Assembly: GCA_024398125.1 (NCBI GenBank)
Contig: JAKSJO010000002.1
Coordinates: 1 to 64,000, forward strand
Source: Bacteroidales bacterium
GTDB lineage: Bacteria > Bacteroidota > Bacteroidia > Bacteroidales > UBA932
Length of the DNA stretch: 64,000 nt
Direction of reading: 5' to 3'
The stretch's first letter is position 1; every line of letters begins with the position of its first letter. Both the position numbers and the translations under genes were made by a program. A model generated the notes under the pieces. The model made no database searches, was not told the origin of the DNA, and saw only the letters and a program-made list of their open reading frames with translations. Below, piece by piece: positions 35,118 through 46,085 of this stretch.

Positions 35118-36128
35118 CTACTCGTCGATTCCCTCGATGGTTTCAATGGTGCCGTCCTCATTGAAGGTGAGCTCGCACACCTTGAGGCTGCGGAGCCATG
35201 ACTTGCCGCCTGAAGGCTTGCTGTCATGATGGAACAGATACCACTTGCCTTCGAACTCGATGATTGCATGATGGGTTGTCCAGCCTACAACAGGGGTGAG
35301 GATCACTCCCTTGTATGTGAATGGGCCATAGATGTTGTCACCGATAGCGTAGCAAAGGAGATGGCTGTCACCGGTAGAGTAGGTGAAGTAGTACTTGCCG
35401 TCCTTCTTGAAGGTCCATGATGCCTCGAAGAAACGATGAGGATCGTCTGCTGTGAGCGGCTTGCCGTCCTCGTCTACGACTACGACAGGCTTTGGCTCCT
35501 CTGCATACTGGAGCATGTCTGGAGAAAGCTTTACAACGCGGCTAGGGATCGCAGGCTGGTCTCCATGAGGGAGATTAGGGCTGTCAGGGGTGTTGTTGAC
35601 AGCAGGATCCTCGATGCCGATGTTGTCCCTGTATGACTGAAGCTGGCCACCCCAGAGACCTCCGAAGTACATATAATACTCGCCATTGTCCTTAAGGACA
35701 GCCATGTCGATGGAGTAGCTGCCATGAACCGGCTCCGGCTGAGGGATGAACGGACCTGCAGGGTTGTCTGCGATAGCCACACCGTGACGGAATACCTCGT
35801 TCTTGTCCTTCATAGGGAAGTACATGTAGTACTTGCCGTCCTTTTCCTGGACATCACAGTCCCAGAGCTGGCGTCCGTGCCAAGCGATGTCCTCGAGGTC
35901 GAGAACCTTGCCGTGGTCGGTAACGGTTCCGGTCATAGGATCTCCGTCGATTGAAAGGACGTGATAGTCCTTCATGATATACTGGTCGCCGCTGTCATCC
36001 TCTACGTTTGACTCATCCTCCCAGTCGTGAGAAGGATAGATGTAGATCTTGCCGTTGAAAACATGAACGGATGGATCAGCCATGTAATCCGCAGGGAGAA
36101 GGTAGCGTTTCTCAACTTTCTTTGCCAT
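35118..36128 (-). CDS. GH43-family glycosidase, cytoplasmic
   Basis: A 336-residue five-bladed beta-propeller enzyme. The three GH43 acids are visible: Asp in MADPSVHVFNGKIYIYPSHD (general base), Asp in SYSIDMAVLKDNGEYYMYFGG (pKa modulator) and Glu in FFEASWTFKKDGKYYF (acid). There is no signal peptide (starts MAKKVEKRYLLPADY), so it acts in the cytoplasm, probably on xylosides or arabinosides imported by a symporter. It is divergent from xylB and the symporter with a 225-base control region between, which supports a common function. Its substrate, xyloside or arabinoside, cannot be settled from sequence. Confidence 0.9.
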   Translation of the reverse strand: MAKKVEKRYLLPADYMADPSVHVFNGKIYIYPSHDWEDESNVEDDSGDQYIMKDYHVLSIDGDPMTGTVTDHGKVLDLEDIAWHGRQLWDCDVQEKDGKYYMYFPMKDKNEVFRHGVAIADNPAGPFIPQPEPVHGSYSIDMAVLKDNGEYYMYFGGLWGGQLQSYRDNIGIEDPAVNNTPDSPNLPHGDQPAIPSRVVKLSPDMLQYAEEPKPVVVVDEDGKPLTADDPHRFFEASWTFKKDGKYYFTYSTGDSHLLCYAIGDNIYGPFTYKGVILTPVVGWTTHHAIIEFEGKWYLFHHDSKPSGGKSWLRSLKVCELTFNEDGTIETIEGIDE

Positions 36129-36353: not shown

Positions 36354-37820
36354 ATGTATTCTCTTGGTATTGATATCGGATCTTCTTCCATCAAGGTATC
36401 GCTTCTCGACATCCAGAAGGGCACATGTCTGTCCTCATCGACCAATCCTAAGACTGAAATGCCGATTTCGGCTCCTAACAAGGGCTGGGCAGAGCAGAAT
36501 CCAGAGCTCTGGTGGCGCTATATCTGCGAAGGAATCAAGGATATCTCAACCCAGTGCGACATGTCAAAGGTCGTTTCAGTGGGTGTTACCTACCAGATGC
36601 ACGGACTCGTTGCAGTAGACCGCAACGTAAAGCCTGTACGTGACGCAATCATCTGGTGTGACTCACGCGCCGTAGGTATCGGTGCCGAGGCTCTCCAGAC
36701 CATAGGTTACGACAAGTGCATGAGCCACCTGCTCAACTCTCCAGGCAACTTCACCGCTTCAAAGCTCGCATGGGTAAAGCGCAACGAGCCGGAGAACTAC
36801 GCGAAGATCTGGAAGTTCATGCTTCCTGGCGACTATGCAGTTTACAAGCTCTCAGGTGATGTGGGCACTACCGAGACCGGTCTTTCAGAGCAGATTCTCT
36901 GGGACTTCAAGGATGGCAAGATGGCTTCATTCGTTGCCGAGTACTATGGCATCGACCCTGAGCTCATCCCTGAGATCAAGCCTTCTATCGGCGTAGCAGC
37001 ACGCACATCCGCTGAAATCGAGGCCCTCCTCGGCATCCCTGCTGGAACTCCAATCTCTTACCGCGCAGGTGACCAGCCAAACAATGCATTCTCACTCAAC
37101 GTCCTCAATCCTGGTGAAATCGCTGCAACCGGCGGTACCAGCGGCGTTGTATACGGCGTTACCGACAAGCCAAAGGCTGATTCGGCTTCACGCGTCAATA
37201 CCTTCCTCCATGTGAACAATACCGCAGATGCAGCACGTCTCGGCGTACTTCTCTGCATCAACGGAACCGGTATCATGAACTCATGGGTACATCGCAACAT
37301 CGTTCCTTCACTCACATACGCTGAAATGAACGACCTCGCTGCAAACGCTCCTGTAGGTTCAGACGGTCTCATCGTCCTCCCATTCGGTAACGGTGCCGAG
37401 CGTGTTCTCGAAAACCGCTGCATGGGTGCACGTTTCGCAGGCATCGACCTCGTACGTCACAGCCAGGCTCACATCCTCCGCGCAACCCAGGAGGGTATCG
37501 CATTCTCATTCCGCTACGGTATCGACATCATGAAGGACCTCGGACTCGAGCCTAACGTGATCCGTGCAGGAAAGGCAAACCTCTTCCTCAGCCCTCTGTT
37601 CCGCAGCACCCTCGCAACCCTCTGCGACTCACGCATCGAGCTCTTCAATACCGACGGCGCTCTCGGTGCAGCTCGCGGCGCAGCTCTCGGTGCAGGTTAC
37701 TATACCAGCGAGGCTGAAGCATTCTCAACCCTCGCGAAGGTTGGTGAGGTTGAGCCTGAGGCAGCTTGGAAGAACGCCCTCGAGGAGAACTACATCCAGT
37801 GGAAGGAGAATCTGAAGTAA
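36354..37820 (+). CDS. xylB: xylulokinase
   Basis: A 488-residue FGGY-family kinase that phosphorylates D-xylulose with ATP, the last step before the pentose phosphate pathway. N-terminal phosphate loop GIDIGSSSIKVSLLD (residues about 5-19); the substrate-binding Met-His pair is VTYQMHGLVAVD near residue 82; the ATP-site blocks are ATGGTSGVVYG near residue 260 and GALGAARGAALGAG near the end. The assignment to xylulokinase rather than other FGGY sugar kinases rests on the QMHGL block and on the adjacent GH43 and symporter. It is co-transcribed with the symporter 26 bases downstream. Xylose isomerase is not in the window. Confidence 0.9.
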   Translation: MYSLGIDIGSSSIKVSLLDIQKGTCLSSSTNPKTEMPISAPNKGWAEQNPELWWRYICEGIKDISTQCDMSKVVSVGVTYQMHGLVAVDRNVKPVRDAIIWCDSRAVGIGAEALQTIGYDKCMSHLLNSPGNFTASKLAWVKRNEPENYAKIWKFMLPGDYAVYKLSGDVGTTETGLSEQILWDFKDGKMASFVAEYYGIDPELIPEIKPSIGVAARTSAEIEALLGIPAGTPISYRAGDQPNNAFSLNVLNPGEIAATGGTSGVVYGVTDKPKADSASRVNTFLHVNNTADAARLGVLLCINGTGIMNSWVHRNIVPSLTYAEMNDLAANAPVGSDGLIVLPFGNGAERVLENRCMGARFAGIDLVRHSQAHILRATQEGIAFSFRYGIDIMKDLGLEPNVIRAGKANLFLSPLFRSTLATLCDSRIELFNTDGALGAARGAALGAGYYTSEAEAFSTLAKVGEVEPEAAWKNALEENYIQWKENLK

Positions 37821-37846
37821 TATAACCACATTAGCTAATAATCATT

Positions 37847-39274
37847 ATGGCAAACAACAACGAGAGCAGAGGTTTCTACAAGCTGAGCTGGCTGCAGCGC
37901 ATCGGCTTCGGCTCGGGTGACATGGCCCAGAACCTCATCTACCAGACCGTCAGCATCTGGCTTCTCTTCTTCTACACAAACGTATTCGGACTCGATCCCG
38001 GCGCAGCAGCCGTCATGTTCCTCGTAGTACGTCTTGTGGATGTAATCTGGGATCCTATCGTAGGCACCCTTGTCGACAAGAAGAACCCTAAGTGGGGAAA
38101 ATACCGTTCATGGCTCATCCTCGGCGGTATTCCTCTTACAGCCCTTGCAATCCTCTGTTTCTGGAACGGATTCTCAGGCTCTCTCATCTACGCTTACGTT
38201 ACATACGTCGGCATGTCAATGTGCTACACCCTCGTCAATGTCCCTTACGGTGCAATCAACTCATCACTTACTCGTGACACCGACGAGATTACAATCCTCA
38301 CATCTGTACGTATGTTCATGGCGAACTCAGGCGCGCTTATCGTAAAGTCGCTTCCGCTCGTCATCGCCCTCTTCGCACCAAAGGTGCTCAATCCTACCAC
38401 CGGAAAGATGGAGGCTGCATACAACACACCTGAAGCTGCCGGTGCATGGTTCACCACAATGGCTATCTTCTGTGTCGCCGGCTTCGCTCTCCTCGTATTC
38501 TGCTTCAGCCAGTGCAAGGAGCGTGTCGTTATGGACGAGAAGGAGTCTGCAAACGTAAAGGTAAGCGACCTCTGGATGGAGTTCTTCCGCAACAAGCCGC
38601 TCCGCGTCCTTGCATTCTTCTTCATCACAGCATTCTCGATGCTTTCTGTAAGCAACGCTGCAGATGCATACTTCATGACGTATAACGTAGGTGCAACCCC
38701 ACTCCTCACCACGCTCTTCATGTGGCTTGGAACCATCCCTGCACTTATCTTCATGCCTCTCGTTCCTGCAATCAAGAAAGCAATCGGCAAGAAGAACATG
38801 TTCTACGCATCTCTCGGCATTGCAATCTTCGGAATGGCAATGATGTATGTGTTCGTGCAGCTCAATCTCCCTCAGACATTGAGATTCACTCTCCTCTGCA
38901 TGGCACAGTTCATCAAGAGTGCCGGCGTCCTCATCGCTACCGGTTACATGTGGGCTCTCGTTCCTGAGGTCATCACCTATGGCGAGTACACCACCGGCAA
39001 GCGTATCGCAGGTATCGTGAATGCTCTTACAGGTATCTTCTTCAAGGCAGGTATGGCTCTTGGTGGCGTTGTTCCTGGATTCGTCCTCGCAATCGTCGGC
39101 TTCCAGGCTGCAAGCGCAAGCCAGACTCCTATGGCACTCCAGGGTATCCTCTGGCTCGTATGCGTCATCCCTGCACTCCTTCTCCTCCTCGCTATGTTTA
39201 TCATCTCAAAGTATGAGCTCACCGACGAGAAGATGGATCAGATCAACAAGGAAATCGAGGCTAGAAACGCATAG
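37847..39274 (+). CDS. GPH-family sugar:cation symporter (xyloside/xylose type)
   Basis: A 475-residue major-facilitator protein with twelve transmembrane helices. Family features: N-terminal LQRIGFGSGDMAQNLIY, the loop RLVDVIWDPIVGTLVDKKNPKWGKYRSW split over helices 2-3 (GPH signature D-x-x-x-D region), and EVITYGEYTTGKRIAGIVNAL in the second half. This is the melibiose/xyloside (XynP-type) cation symporter family. It follows xylB closely and both lie opposite the cytoplasmic GH43 enzyme, so it likely imports xylobiose, xylosides or xylose. A hairpin terminator follows 26 bases after the stop. Confidence 0.9.
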   Translation: MANNNESRGFYKLSWLQRIGFGSGDMAQNLIYQTVSIWLLFFYTNVFGLDPGAAAVMFLVVRLVDVIWDPIVGTLVDKKNPKWGKYRSWLILGGIPLTALAILCFWNGFSGSLIYAYVTYVGMSMCYTLVNVPYGAINSSLTRDTDEITILTSVRMFMANSGALIVKSLPLVIALFAPKVLNPTTGKMEAAYNTPEAAGAWFTTMAIFCVAGFALLVFCFSQCKERVVMDEKESANVKVSDLWMEFFRNKPLRVLAFFFITAFSMLSVSNAADAYFMTYNVGATPLLTTLFMWLGTIPALIFMPLVPAIKKAIGKKNMFYASLGIAIFGMAMMYVFVQLNLPQTLRFTLLCMAQFIKSAGVLIATGYMWALVPEVITYGEYTTGKRIAGIVNALTGIFFKAGMALGGVVPGFVLAIVGFQAASASQTPMALQGILWLVCVIPALLLLLAMFIISKYELTDEKMDQINKEIEARNA

Positions 39275-40133: not shown

Positions 40134-41135
40134 ATGGCACTTTTTGAAAGCTACGAGCGTCGTATTGACCAGGTCAATGCAGCTCTTAACAAGTATGGTA
40201 TCAAGGACCTCGAAGAGGCTAAGGCTATCTGCGACGAGAAGGGCATCGATCCTTACAAGATGTGTGAGGACACCCAGAAGATCTGCTTCGAGAATGCAAA
40301 GTGGGCTTATGTAGCAGGTGCTGCTATCGCTATCAAGAAGGGTTGTGCAGTTGCTGCTGACGCTGCCGAGGCTATCGGTGAGGGTCTCCAGGCATTCTGT
40401 ATCCCTGGATCTGTAGCTGATGACCGTAAGGTTGGTCTCGGCCACGGAAACCTCGCAGCACGTCTTCTCCGTGAGGAGACCGAGTGCTTCGCTTTCCTTG
40501 CAGGTCACGAGTCTTACGCAGCTGCTGAAGGCGCTATCAAGATCGCTGAGATGGCTAACAAGGTACGTCAGAAGCCACTTCGCGTCATCCTTAACGGTCT
40601 CGGAAAGGATGCTGCAAAGATCATCTCACGCATCAACGGTTTCACCTATGTACAGACCCAGTTCGACTATTACACCGGTGACTATGAGATCATCAGCGAG
40701 ACCCGTTACTCAGAGGGTGTTCGTGGTGGCGTTCGCTGCTACGGTGCTGACGATGTACGTGAAGGTGTAAAGATCATGTGGAAGGAGGGTGTAGACGTAT
40801 CCATCACCGGTAACTCTACCAACCCTACCCGTTTCCAGCACCCAGTTGCTGGTACCTACAAGAAGGAGCGCGTGCTCGCTGGCAAGCCTTACTTCTCAGT
40901 AGCATCAGGTGGTGGTACCGGCCGTACCCTTCACCCAGACAACATGGCTGCAGGTCCTGCATCATACGGTATGACCGATACTCTCGGCCGTATGCACTCT
41001 GACGCTCAGTTCGCAGGTTCATCTTCAGTTCCTGCACACGTCGAGATGATGGGCTTCCTCGGCATGGGTAACAACCCTATGGTTGGTTGCTCAGTTGCTG
41101 TCGCAGTTGCAGTTTCTCAGGCTCTCAGCAAGTAA
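40134..41135 (+). CDS. GGGtGRT family protein
   Basis: A 333-residue protein that carries the name-giving motif SGGGTGRTLHPDN near residue 276. It starts LFESYERRIDQVNAALNKYG and has cysteines at several places (AICDEKG, KMCEDTQKICFENA, GFC-like QAFCIPGS, ETECFAF, VRCYGADD, MVGCSVAV). Its fold and chemistry are not known to me. The middle shows LGKDAAKIISRINGFTYVQTQ and the end is a Gly/Met-rich helix. It follows the NifU-like gene by five bases in the same operon and the same codon style, so the two proteins are very likely partners. Family membership is confident, function is not. Confidence 0.88.
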   Translation: MALFESYERRIDQVNAALNKYGIKDLEEAKAICDEKGIDPYKMCEDTQKICFENAKWAYVAGAAIAIKKGCAVAADAAEAIGEGLQAFCIPGSVADDRKVGLGHGNLAARLLREETECFAFLAGHESYAAAEGAIKIAEMANKVRQKPLRVILNGLGKDAAKIISRINGFTYVQTQFDYYTGDYEIISETRYSEGVRGGVRCYGADDVREGVKIMWKEGVDVSITGNSTNPTRFQHPVAGTYKKERVLAGKPYFSVASGGGTGRTLHPDNMAAGPASYGMTDTLGRMHSDAQFAGSSSVPAHVEMMGFLGMGNNPMVGCSVAVAVAVSQALSK

Positions 41136-41295: not shown

Positions 41296-42423
<1,128 letters not shown>

Positions 42424-43580: not shown

Positions 43581-46085
43581 ATGAAAAAATTGACAATAAC
43601 AATCCTCGCTTTTGCATTCTGTGCCAGCCTGAATGCCCAGAATGCATTGTCGGTCATCACCGAGAATCCGGACCGCGCCGCGAACAACATGCACTCCTAT
43701 GAGTTTGCAGAGATACGCGACACGCCGGCTCCAAAGGGCTATAAGCCATTCTACATCTCGCACTATGGCCGTCACGGATCAAGATATGAGCAGAATGCCA
43801 CTTTCGGAGCAGCTGCGATTAAGACTCTGTCCCATCTCGACACCCTGGGACTTCTCACAAGCCAGGGAAAGCTCCTTCTTGAACAGGTAAAGACTGTCCA
43901 GGACGCACACGTCGGCATGGAAGGTATGCTCACCCCTCGCGGAGCGAAGGAGCACAGGACCATCGCAGCCAGAATGGCTGACAGATACCCACAGGTATTC
44001 AAGAGCAAGGAGCGCAACGAGGTCAACTGCGTCGCCAGCACAAGCCAGCGCTGCATCGTCAGCATGACCAACTTCAGCTACAGCCTCAAGGAGAGATTTC
44101 CTGATCAGAATTTCACATTCTCGACTGGCGAGAAGTTCATGTCATACATCAACCCAAGCCTCAGGGTCTATGCCCCGGGCAACGAGCCGCCTCAGCGTCC
44201 AGGCATGGGCATGGGTCAGATGCCGCCGATGGCATGGCCTATGGCGCGTCCTGCCGAGATGCCGTACGCACCGGCACCAGGTGTTCCTGGCTATGACTTC
44301 ACCCGTTTCCTCAAACCTCTCCTTACTGACTTCAACAGGGGAATGGCAGTGATCGGCAACCCTGAACCATTCATCAAGTCTGTATTCTCGGCCGGCGGAA
44401 TGTGCCAGGATGTCGACTTCCTCGGAATCGATATCTTCCGCAACTTCTTCTCACCGGAAGAGCTCGTATATCTCTGGGCTTCCGGAAATGATTCCATCTA
44501 CAGGATGTGGGCAGCCTCTCTCGAGGTCGGCGACAACATCAAGTATGCGGCAAGACCTCTTCTCAAGGACTTCATGGACAAGGCGGACGAGGCAGTGAAG
44601 CCGGGCAGCCACAGGTCTGCAGACCTCCGATTCGGTCACGACACCGCAATCCTTCCTCTCTTTGCCCTTCTCGGCGTAGACGACCTCCAGGGAAGACGAT
44701 TCCCTACAGCCGAGGCTCACGCAAACGGATGGTATGCATTCGAGCAGATTCCGATGGGAACCAACTGCCAGATGATTTTCTACCGTGACAAGAAGGGTAA
44801 TGTGCTGACCAAGATCCTTTACAACGAAAAGGAAGTGTCGCTCCCTGGACTTGAGTCCGAGACAGCTCCATATTATGACTGGAACGAGCTCCGCGCATAT
44901 TTCCAGGATCTCTATGACTGGAAGGCAGAAGCCGTTAAGCCGGTTTCCAAGCCAAAGCCGCAGGTAAAGGCTCCTGGCGACCTCCTCGATGCAGCGGCAT
45001 TCAATACCGAGATCGACGGCAAGAAGGTATCTCTCTACACCATCACCAACGGTACCATCAGCGCTCAGATCACCAACTACGGTGGATATATCGTAGGTAT
45101 CTATACACCGGACAAAGACGGCAAGTATGCAAATGTTGTCGGTCATAATGACAATATCCAGCAGTACATGGGATTCAGCAGAAATCCGGCCGGCCCGGCA
45201 CTCGGACGCTATGCCAACAGAATCGGCCATGCGAAATTCACCCTTGACGGTGTCGAGTATAACGTGACCAAGAACAATGGCGAGCATATCCTCCACGGTG
45301 GAAGCAAGGCCTTCGACCATACCGTGTGGGATGTACTTGAGGCAGGGGAGAGCAAACTCGTTCTCAGCTGTACCCTGGAGGACGGTCTTGACGGTTTCCC
45401 TGGAAACATGACCACCATCCTTACCTTCTCCATCACAGAGGACAATGGTGTCAGCATCGACTTCAAGGCAACCACCGACAAGACTACTGTATGCAGCCTC
45501 TCGCACCACGCGTACTTCAATCTCAATGGTACCGATTCGGATGACATTCTCAACCACGTGATCACCATCAACTCGGACAAGATCACCGAGTCGGACGCAG
45601 CACTCATCCCGACCGGCAAGTTCCTCCCTGTCGAAGGCACTCTCTTCGATTTCAGGAAGCCTGTAAAGCTCGGTGACCGTCAGGTGGCTCCGGCTCCTAT
45701 GCCTGCAATGCCGGCAGGTCCGCGTCCGGCAGGTCCAGGTGCAGGTGCACGCCCTGGTCAGGGTGCCGCTCCTGCGGCCCGTCCACAGATGCCGCCTGTT
45801 CCTGACGGAATGGTACGCAGCTATGACCAGAACTTCTGTCTGAACCACAGCGCTGCCGGAAAGGTGGAACTTGTTGCAGTTCTCAAGTCTCCTGAGACAG
45901 GCCGCGTGATGGAGGTCCTCAATGACCATCCAGGAATGCAGCTTTTCACCGGAAACAGAAAGGCCATCGCAATGGAGTCTCAGATGTACCCGGATTCACC
46001 AAACCATCCAGAGTTCCCAAGCACAACTCTCCGTCCAGGCGAGACCTATACTCACACAGTCGTTTACAGATTCAAGGCAGAGTAA
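43581..46085 (+). CDS. fusion of histidine acid phosphatase and aldose 1-epimerase, secreted
   Basis: An 834-residue protein with a signal peptide (residues 1-20, ending LNAQN). Residues about 40-450 form a histidine acid phosphatase of the phytase-like branch: ISHYGRHGSRYE near residue 62 (RHGxR with the phosphorylated His) and FGHDTAIL near residue 352 (HD proton donor). Residues about 470-834 form a galactose mutarotase: ITNYGGYIVGIYTP, GRYANRIGHAKF, NGEHILHGG, SHHAYFNLNG (catalytic His) and LRPGETYTHTVVYRF (catalytic Glu). Pro/Met/Ala/Gly-rich insertions interrupt both domains (43581+~610 to +~700 and 45690-45795). The reading frame is unbroken, so this is a genuine fusion in this assembly. 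Its substrate is unknown. Confidence 0.88.
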   Translation: MKKLTITILAFAFCASLNAQNALSVITENPDRAANNMHSYEFAEIRDTPAPKGYKPFYISHYGRHGSRYEQNATFGAAAIKTLSHLDTLGLLTSQGKLLLEQVKTVQDAHVGMEGMLTPRGAKEHRTIAARMADRYPQVFKSKERNEVNCVASTSQRCIVSMTNFSYSLKERFPDQNFTFSTGEKFMSYINPSLRVYAPGNEPPQRPGMGMGQMPPMAWPMARPAEMPYAPAPGVPGYDFTRFLKPLLTDFNRGMAVIGNPEPFIKSVFSAGGMCQDVDFLGIDIFRNFFSPEELVYLWASGNDSIYRMWAASLEVGDNIKYAARPLLKDFMDKADEAVKPGSHRSADLRFGHDTAILPLFALLGVDDLQGRRFPTAEAHANGWYAFEQIPMGTNCQMIFYRDKKGNVLTKILYNEKEVSLPGLESETAPYYDWNELRAYFQDLYDWKAEAVKPVSKPKPQVKAPGDLLDAAAFNTEIDGKKVSLYTITNGTISAQITNYGGYIVGIYTPDKDGKYANVVGHNDNIQQYMGFSRNPAGPALGRYANRIGHAKFTLDGVEYNVTKNNGEHILHGGSKAFDHTVWDVLEAGESKLVLSCTLEDGLDGFPGNMTTILTFSITEDNGVSIDFKATTDKTTVCSLSHHAYFNLNGTDSDDILNHVITINSDKITESDAALIPTGKFLPVEGTLFDFRKPVKLGDRQVAPAPMPAMPAGPRPAGPGAGARPGQGAAPAARPQMPPVPDGMVRSYDQNFCLNHSAAGKVELVAVLKSPETGRVMEVLNDHPGMQLFTGNRKAIAMESQMYPDSPNHPEFPSTTLRPGETYTHTVVYRFKAE

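Follow-up and report, generated by a model that had tools for sequence, protein, structure and literature searches.

A fusion of a histidine phosphatase and an aldose 1-epimerase in Candidatus Cryptobacteroides, a genus whose branch 2 histidine phosphatases are often fused

A single open gene in a Bacteroidales genome joins a histidine phosphatase of superfamily branch 2 (HP2) to an aldose 1-epimerase (mutarotase, GalM). Both domains and their motifs are recognisable, the gene is under selection, and its halves are related to two separate genes with signal-like N-termini; we consider it likely that this is a real, recent fusion yielding one exported bifunctional enzyme with two independent sites. 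In the scenario we propose, a secreted phosphatase gene would have acquired, in frame at its 3' end, a secreted mutarotase gene stripped of most of its signal-peptide coding sequence. The resulting chain would be exported and periplasmic, possibly vesicle-borne; its HP2 domain would strip phosphate via a phospho-histidine (His65), with Asp354 as the proton donor, and its GalM domain would act on a free aldose by interconverting its anomers, the likeliest such sugar being a pentose freed by xylan-degrading enzymes encoded nearby. The two sites would work independently, and the gain would be one export signal, fixed stoichiometry and co-location. Judging from profile searches, HP2 enzymes of the genus are often fused and this gene is one example, a genus-wide habit that is more interesting than the single gene.

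The gene lies in the window, a stretch of 64,000 nucleotides (assembly GCA_024398125.1, contig JAKSJO010000002.1), at positions 43581..46085 of the plus strand. It has an ATG start and is a single 834-codon ORF (834 aa) with zero internal stops, encoding a likely signal peptide, the HP2 phosphatase, an 18-residue linker and a complete GalM domain, in that order. Its features and its neighbours are as follows:

43581..43640, plus strand: likely signal peptide, residues 1-20, MKKLTITILAFAFCASLNAQ; read by eye, no lipobox seen, aligned N-termini of relatives similar
43581..44924, plus strand: HP2 histidine phosphatase domain, residues 1-448; RHGSR at 64-68, HD at 353-354; Pfam His_Phos_2 and PDB matches
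44172..44294, plus strand: phosphatase insert, Pro/Met/Gly/Ala/Arg-rich, residues ~198-238
44925..44978, plus strand: interdomain linker AEAVKPVSKPKPQVKAPG, residues 449-466; takes in the residues where similarity to the mature start of separate mutarotases sets in
44979..46082, plus strand: GalM (aldose 1-epimerase) domain, residues 467-834; Pfam Aldose_epim and PDB matches
45684..45809, plus strand: mutarotase insert, Pro/Ala/Gly/Met/Arg-rich, residues ~702-743, before RSYDQNFCLN
41314..42423, plus strand: CE1-type esterase, feruloyl-esterase-like; Pfam Esterase; NCBIfam Xylase_Ferestase E 4.6e-191, below its cut-off
36354..39274, plus strand: xylulokinase-like kinase of the FGGY family, short of the XylB cut-off, and GPH symporter that passes its cut-off
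35118..36128, minus strand: GH43 glycoside hydrolase, an upstream neighbour

The fused protein scores 43.4 bits against Pfam His_Phos_2 (cut-off 23.6) and 237.3 bits against Aldose_epim (cut-off 27). With both domains above cut-off and 834 codons without a stop, the unbroken phosphatase-mutarotase frame described in a first-pass annotation of this DNA is borne out, as is its RHGxR phosphatase: R64-H65-G66-x-R68 is intact, and the N-terminus, judged by eye, is signal-like, making export of the fused protein likely. The linker is Lys/Pro-rich; its cleavage would yield two separate enzymes, which would count against a single bifunctional chain. A 492-codon open frame runs antisense to the fusion (window 44451-45929, minus strand), with parts also open in L129, L118 and L089, and is most likely a by-product of codon usage.

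The phosphatase half falls within histidine phosphatase superfamily branch 2 (PF00328), with its profile score above cut-off, an RHGxR and a distal HD; R64-H65-G66-x-R68 and H353-D354 are invariant across 21 HP2 rows. The closest solved relative is 7r5y, 'Histidine acid phosphatase' (E 6.6e-42), which has GHDT in common with the window protein but is a 416-residue chain without a mutarotase; no paper or function for this entry was found in the open-access literature. BtMinpp entries follow at ~1e-32 to 1e-33. Because the nearest solved structures include BtMinpp and other MINPPs, and BtMinpp (4fdt) has the HP2 fold, RHGxR and export in a gut Bacteroides to the periplasm and vesicles (PMC3969271), the phosphatase might be a phytase, MINPP-like in activity, with an independent mutarotase attached. 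The motifs speak against this. MINPPs carry HAE where phytases have HD, plus a conserved Arg183 (PMC3969271); the window protein has HDT, and two BtMinpp entries align as HAE while two others, apparently variants, align as HDN and HDE. The RHGxRxP of MINPPs reads RHGSRYE, with Glu replacing the last Pro, and the residue aligned to Arg183 (pocket S2) is Asn193, by a profile alignment with residues counted by hand in which an error of a few columns is possible. On these three motifs we rejected membership of the MINPPs: by these tests, HD, RHGSRYE and Asn at the Arg183 position make the protein an HP2 phosphatase but not a MINPP. BtMinpp, which has HAE and Arg183 where the window protein has neither, also differs in having been solved as a single phosphatase. 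We therefore regard the phytase reading as rather unlikely, and phytate as one possible candidate substrate among others. The phytate-like compound proposed at first pass is weakened by the absent HAE and Arg183, and the anomer conversion that was to follow its dephosphorylation fails because inositol phosphates have no anomer to convert.

For the mutarotase, the xylan and xylose genes of the neighbourhood point to pentoses, and a pentose from xylan is our best guess at its substrate. In L075/L129 too the esterase precedes the fusion, and L075 also has GH115 directly upstream. G120 has a GH43-CBM6 gene after its separate phosphatase and one after its separate mutarotase; the mutarotase of L164 comes after GH43 and GH3 genes, and that of G335 (L274) has upstream of it two genes with 37-39% identity to the window esterase. 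On the other hand, the separate mutarotases of L191, L193, L275-L279 and L165, judged by gene starts and by their lack of esterase-like neighbours, lie in no obvious xylan operon, which counts against our preferred reading.

Alternatively, as suggested at first pass, the two sites could act in sequence, with HP2 dephosphorylating a sugar phosphate or a phosphorylated glycan end and GalM equilibrating the anomers of the freed sugar before uptake. This gains from the partners that HP2 has elsewhere in the genus, since 23 of the 30 fusions counted pair it with NAGPA, GDPD or a calcineurin-type phosphoesterase, whose product could be a phosphomonoester, and from the possibility that an HP2 of the HD type, lacking the pocket residues of MINPPs, may prefer smaller substrates. 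With partners mostly of phosphodiesterase type, relay logic may be common in the family: the diesterase would make a monoester and HP2 would remove its phosphate. Such pairing elsewhere raises, without establishing, the chance that the halves of the window protein share a substrate. However, no sugar-phosphate-specific feature was identified in the protein, its neighbours are xylan genes, and mutarotation also occurs spontaneously in water. Moreover, GalM is joined in the genus to other enzymes (GH5-GalM, GH2-GalM, GalM-GH2 and GalM-GDSL were seen), so that it need not follow a phosphatase. We give sequential action a small chance, and continue to favour two independent sites. The individual cases are L060, L062, L063, L064 and L065, with GalM joined to GH2 (both orders) and to GH5, and L279:3200-4975 (minus strand; G308), where a GDSL-type esterase comes after GalM; this makes two fusions in the mutarotase clade of the window protein.

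The mutarotase half matches 4rnl (E 2.7e-49) and human GALM (1snz, E 1.1e-47), and in alignment with 1snz it keeps LHGG, the HH/NH histidine, the Asp of YDQNF/FDHNF and the Glu of AMESQ/CLETQ; the His pair, Asp and Glu are the catalytic residues of GalM. Together with a score of 237.3 against a cut-off of 27 bits, this places it in the aldose 1-epimerase family (PF01263) and agrees with the complete mutarotase recognised at first pass. Both solved proteins have the same fold and catalytic residues but are single-domain chains, whereas members of the window clade start with a signal-like N-terminus, carry a low-complexity insert and lack a 16-residue loop before AMESQ that 4rnl and 1snz have. 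The score against the galM_Leloir equivalog (TIGR02636) is 233.9 bits, below the cut-off of 397.65, and this, with the missing loop, suggests that specificity or activity may differ from galM. The loop deletion, the insert within the fold and the score below the equivalog cut-off would also suit a module that has no catalytic role and instead binds sugar, docking the phosphatase onto glycans; we think this quite improbable, given that the catalytic residues are kept and that dN/dS is 0.03.

The low-complexity inserts lie at residues ~198-238 and ~702-743, the latter directly before RSYDQNFCLN, in the positions already assigned to them at first pass. Their best 30-residue windows are 90% (phosphatase) and 100% (mutarotase) P/M/G/A/Q/R, a composition that reaches 70% over 30 residues in only 1 other of 49 non-overlapping window ORFs. 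They had been taken for a shared feature of the fusion, a signature that we rejected since unfused relatives of both halves have them at variable length. The phosphatase insert measures 28-44 residues in the 37 unfused members of the same HP2 clade, while in the more distant rows L058, L059, L110, L113 and L114 it is short or has another composition (L111 is broken); the mutarotase insert is present in 12/12 separate close mutarotases, mostly shorter but ~60 residues in G120. Going by these relatives, both inserts predate the fusion. No tandem repeat is shared between them, TRF giving one 6-base array (3.5 copies, score 35) in the mutarotase insert only. The phosphatase insert begins a few residues past the position aligned to BtMinpp Arg183, so that it is probably close to the substrate pocket. 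Two signal-bearing proteins of the genus (L274:16627-17286 and L279:8567-8998) have long Met/Gly/Pro-rich stretches at their start that resemble the window inserts.

A contig scan for fused relatives, which may skip the window's own genome, gave 79 pattern hits and 45 relatives, of which only L129 (JAKSJN010000016.1, a Bacteroidales MAG from horse faeces, corresponding to G235 of the whole-genome set) matches residues 1-834, with 91% identity to the window protein over that range. Between the two fusions dS is ~1.1 (834 aligned codons, Nei-Gojobori), and dN/dS by the same method is 0.064 in the phosphatase, 0.033 in the linker (18 codons) and 0.032 in the mutarotase. The linker is identical at 17/18 residues, with 8.5 synonymous versus 1.5 nonsynonymous differences. 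This strong purifying selection shows that both halves and the linker have been preserved since the species split. The flanks are shared with L075/L129 in the same order (gene 40134-41135, esterase, fusion, ThuA, LamG-like gene, TonB receptor), and one upstream flanking gene differs, L075 having GH115 where the window has a thioredoxin-fold gene. An assembly join or a degenerate read-through of two genes, although the other close relatives seen are separate genes, is so improbable as to be dismissed, since the same junction stands at the same locus in a second assembly and the linker itself is under purifying selection. Likewise, two species carrying the fusion contradict the possibility, raised at first pass, that homologues are always two separate genes, which the other close relatives seen are. 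A phage origin was also considered, and dropped as PHROGs gave no match.

In the matches listed for 400 genomes sampled from the genus, the phosphatase half has an HP2 counterpart in 315 genomes, and a close mutarotase (E <= 1e-70) occurs in 14. The mutarotase is joined to the phosphatase in only two of those 14, the window's genome (G000) and G235, a rarity (among the matches listed) that counts against our preferred reading; more distant copies of both families may be fused elsewhere in the genus. In the other 12 it is not joined to a phosphatase and has its own signal-like N-terminus, one of them (G308) having it joined to the GDSL esterase. A tree of 114 HP2 domains, made by a quick method with SH-aLRT only, from rows partly picked for long frames and with several long-branch warnings, places the two fused rows together on a branch of their own (support 98). 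A single-domain gene of G120 joins them next (99), and all three belong to a clade of 39 rows (100; all three values starred) whose 37 other members are single-domain. By this tree, the fusion is one young branch, recently formed.

The junction itself points to the parent genes. The 12 separate mutarotases have a signal-peptide-like start ending in AQTKAPGDLLD or similar, where the fused protein reads PQVKAPGDLLD, and the fused mutarotase thus starts at the mature start of its separate, signal-bearing relatives. DNA similarity to the separate mutarotase of G120 (L118) runs a few codons into the end of its signal peptide; the stretch is short, and so only suggestive. We found little sign of ancestral adjacency: of nine genomes with both close genes separate (G089, G120, G141, G201, G249, G306, G307, G308 and G335), seven have them on different contigs. 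They are 2.1 kb apart in G201 and ~13 kb apart in G335, on one strand with the mutarotase upstream, the reverse of the fused order. The start of contig C11 of G306 was dropped as a third same-contig case, because its overlap with contig C44 is far below identity and it is thus another copy.

Long HP2 frames in the genus are other fusions, with GDPD, a calcineurin-type phosphoesterase, NAGPA on either side and GH106, and further with a carboxylesterase, a CE1-like esterase, an SdiA-regulated-family domain, NAGLU and a glyoxalase-like domain. To count them, we searched 20 genomes with profiles: G000, G235 and 18 hand-picked for high completeness and an HP2 match, two of which (G016 and G107) were already known to hold HP2 fusions. 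The search gave 104 rows and 99 HP2 genes, with 33 frames of at least 560 aa; three of these (the second copy in G107:C7, G418:C46 and G235:C23) were judged spurious. Fused genes thus make up 30/99 in these hand-picked genomes versus 1/26 elsewhere in the order. The partners are NAGPA (15), calcineurin-type (5), GDPD (3), GalM (2), SdiA-regulated (2), NAGLU (1), glyoxalase-like (1) and one extension without an assigned family, called by Pfam scan in 17 cases, by similarity to those in 12 and, in G235, by similarity to the window; NAGPA, GDPD and calcineurin-type, the phosphodiester-cleaving families, account for the 23 cited above. Leaving out G000 and G235 gives 28/94, and leaving out G016 and G107 too gives 25/82; against 1/26, either has a one-sided Fisher p of 0.003, a rough guide given that genes are non-independent and the 20 genomes non-random. 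The order-wide figure comes from 247 genomes, a few of them of the same genus or family, in which 21 besides G000 hold 26 HP2 genes, one of them fused (GH2-HP2 in G503). Across 392 genomes of the phylum, five besides G000 have a full-length HP2 (frames 425-457 aa) and one a weak fragment; G624 belongs to both sets. The wide searches scored only 4-7 candidates per genome, a further reason to take the Fisher values as a rough guide. On the HP2 tree, at least 20 changes are required to explain the 16 states, and at least 10 to explain the single/fused label even when only starred branches are counted, so that HP2 fusion probably happened many times.

The commonest fusion counted has the phosphodiester glycosidase (NAGPA) on either side of HP2 (L067, L070, L071, L237, L238, L246-L256), a pairing that suggests a diester-to-phosphate relay. 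Others join HP2 to a GH106 alpha-L-rhamnosidase in open frames of 1491 and 1462 aa (L066:2500-6972 and L174:1979-6364), or place a NAGLU-type alpha-N-acetylglucosaminidase ahead of the phosphatase (L242:3093-6554, minus strand). Two HP2 phosphatases (L257:2430-4505 and L179:1273-3441) carry a C-terminal extension of 270-300 residues with no Pfam domain above cut-off. The glyoxalase extension of L235, which may be two overlapping genes, was counted as a fusion. L091, L072:1774, L177:3853, L181, L187, L241 and L258 were not, their extra sequence being an upstream frame without a recognised domain (for L072:1774, L241 and L258 this call was made by eye and from profile coverage). More speculatively, and with low confidence, HP2 might be a plug-in terminal phosphatase module of the genus, fused many times independently to phosphodiesterases, glycosidases, esterases and a mutarotase; a single protein would then strip phosphorylated glycans and lipid head groups, and here the phosphatase would free a reducing sugar and the mutarotase equilibrate it for uptake.

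Bifunctional secreted enzymes and GalM fusions are already known. In yeast GAL10 (1z45), too, a single chain carries a mutarotase domain after a different sugar enzyme, but no phosphatase; the partner domain is UDP-galactose 4-epimerase, and the protein is cytosolic. The other HP2 fusions of Cryptobacteroides (NAGPA, GDPD, metallophosphoesterase, GH106, NAGLU, esterases) have the same phosphatase family in one open frame, but differ in their partners and lie on other branches of the HP2 tree. The architecture was unfamiliar at first pass, and we too found no description of it in the open-access literature (bioRxiv lying outside the search and few subscription papers within it); the mutarotase passages of a galactosidase paper (PMC11739564) hold nothing relevant to it. 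Nor did a narrower search of the open-access literature find a description of the genus-wide habit. Young as it is, and with unfused sister genes for comparison, the fusion offers a direct way to ask what is gained when two secreted enzymes become one. The genus pattern marks a little-studied herbivore-gut lineage as multiplying and recombining secreted phosphatases, and bears on phosphate release from feed and on the gut breakdown of phosphorylated glycans.
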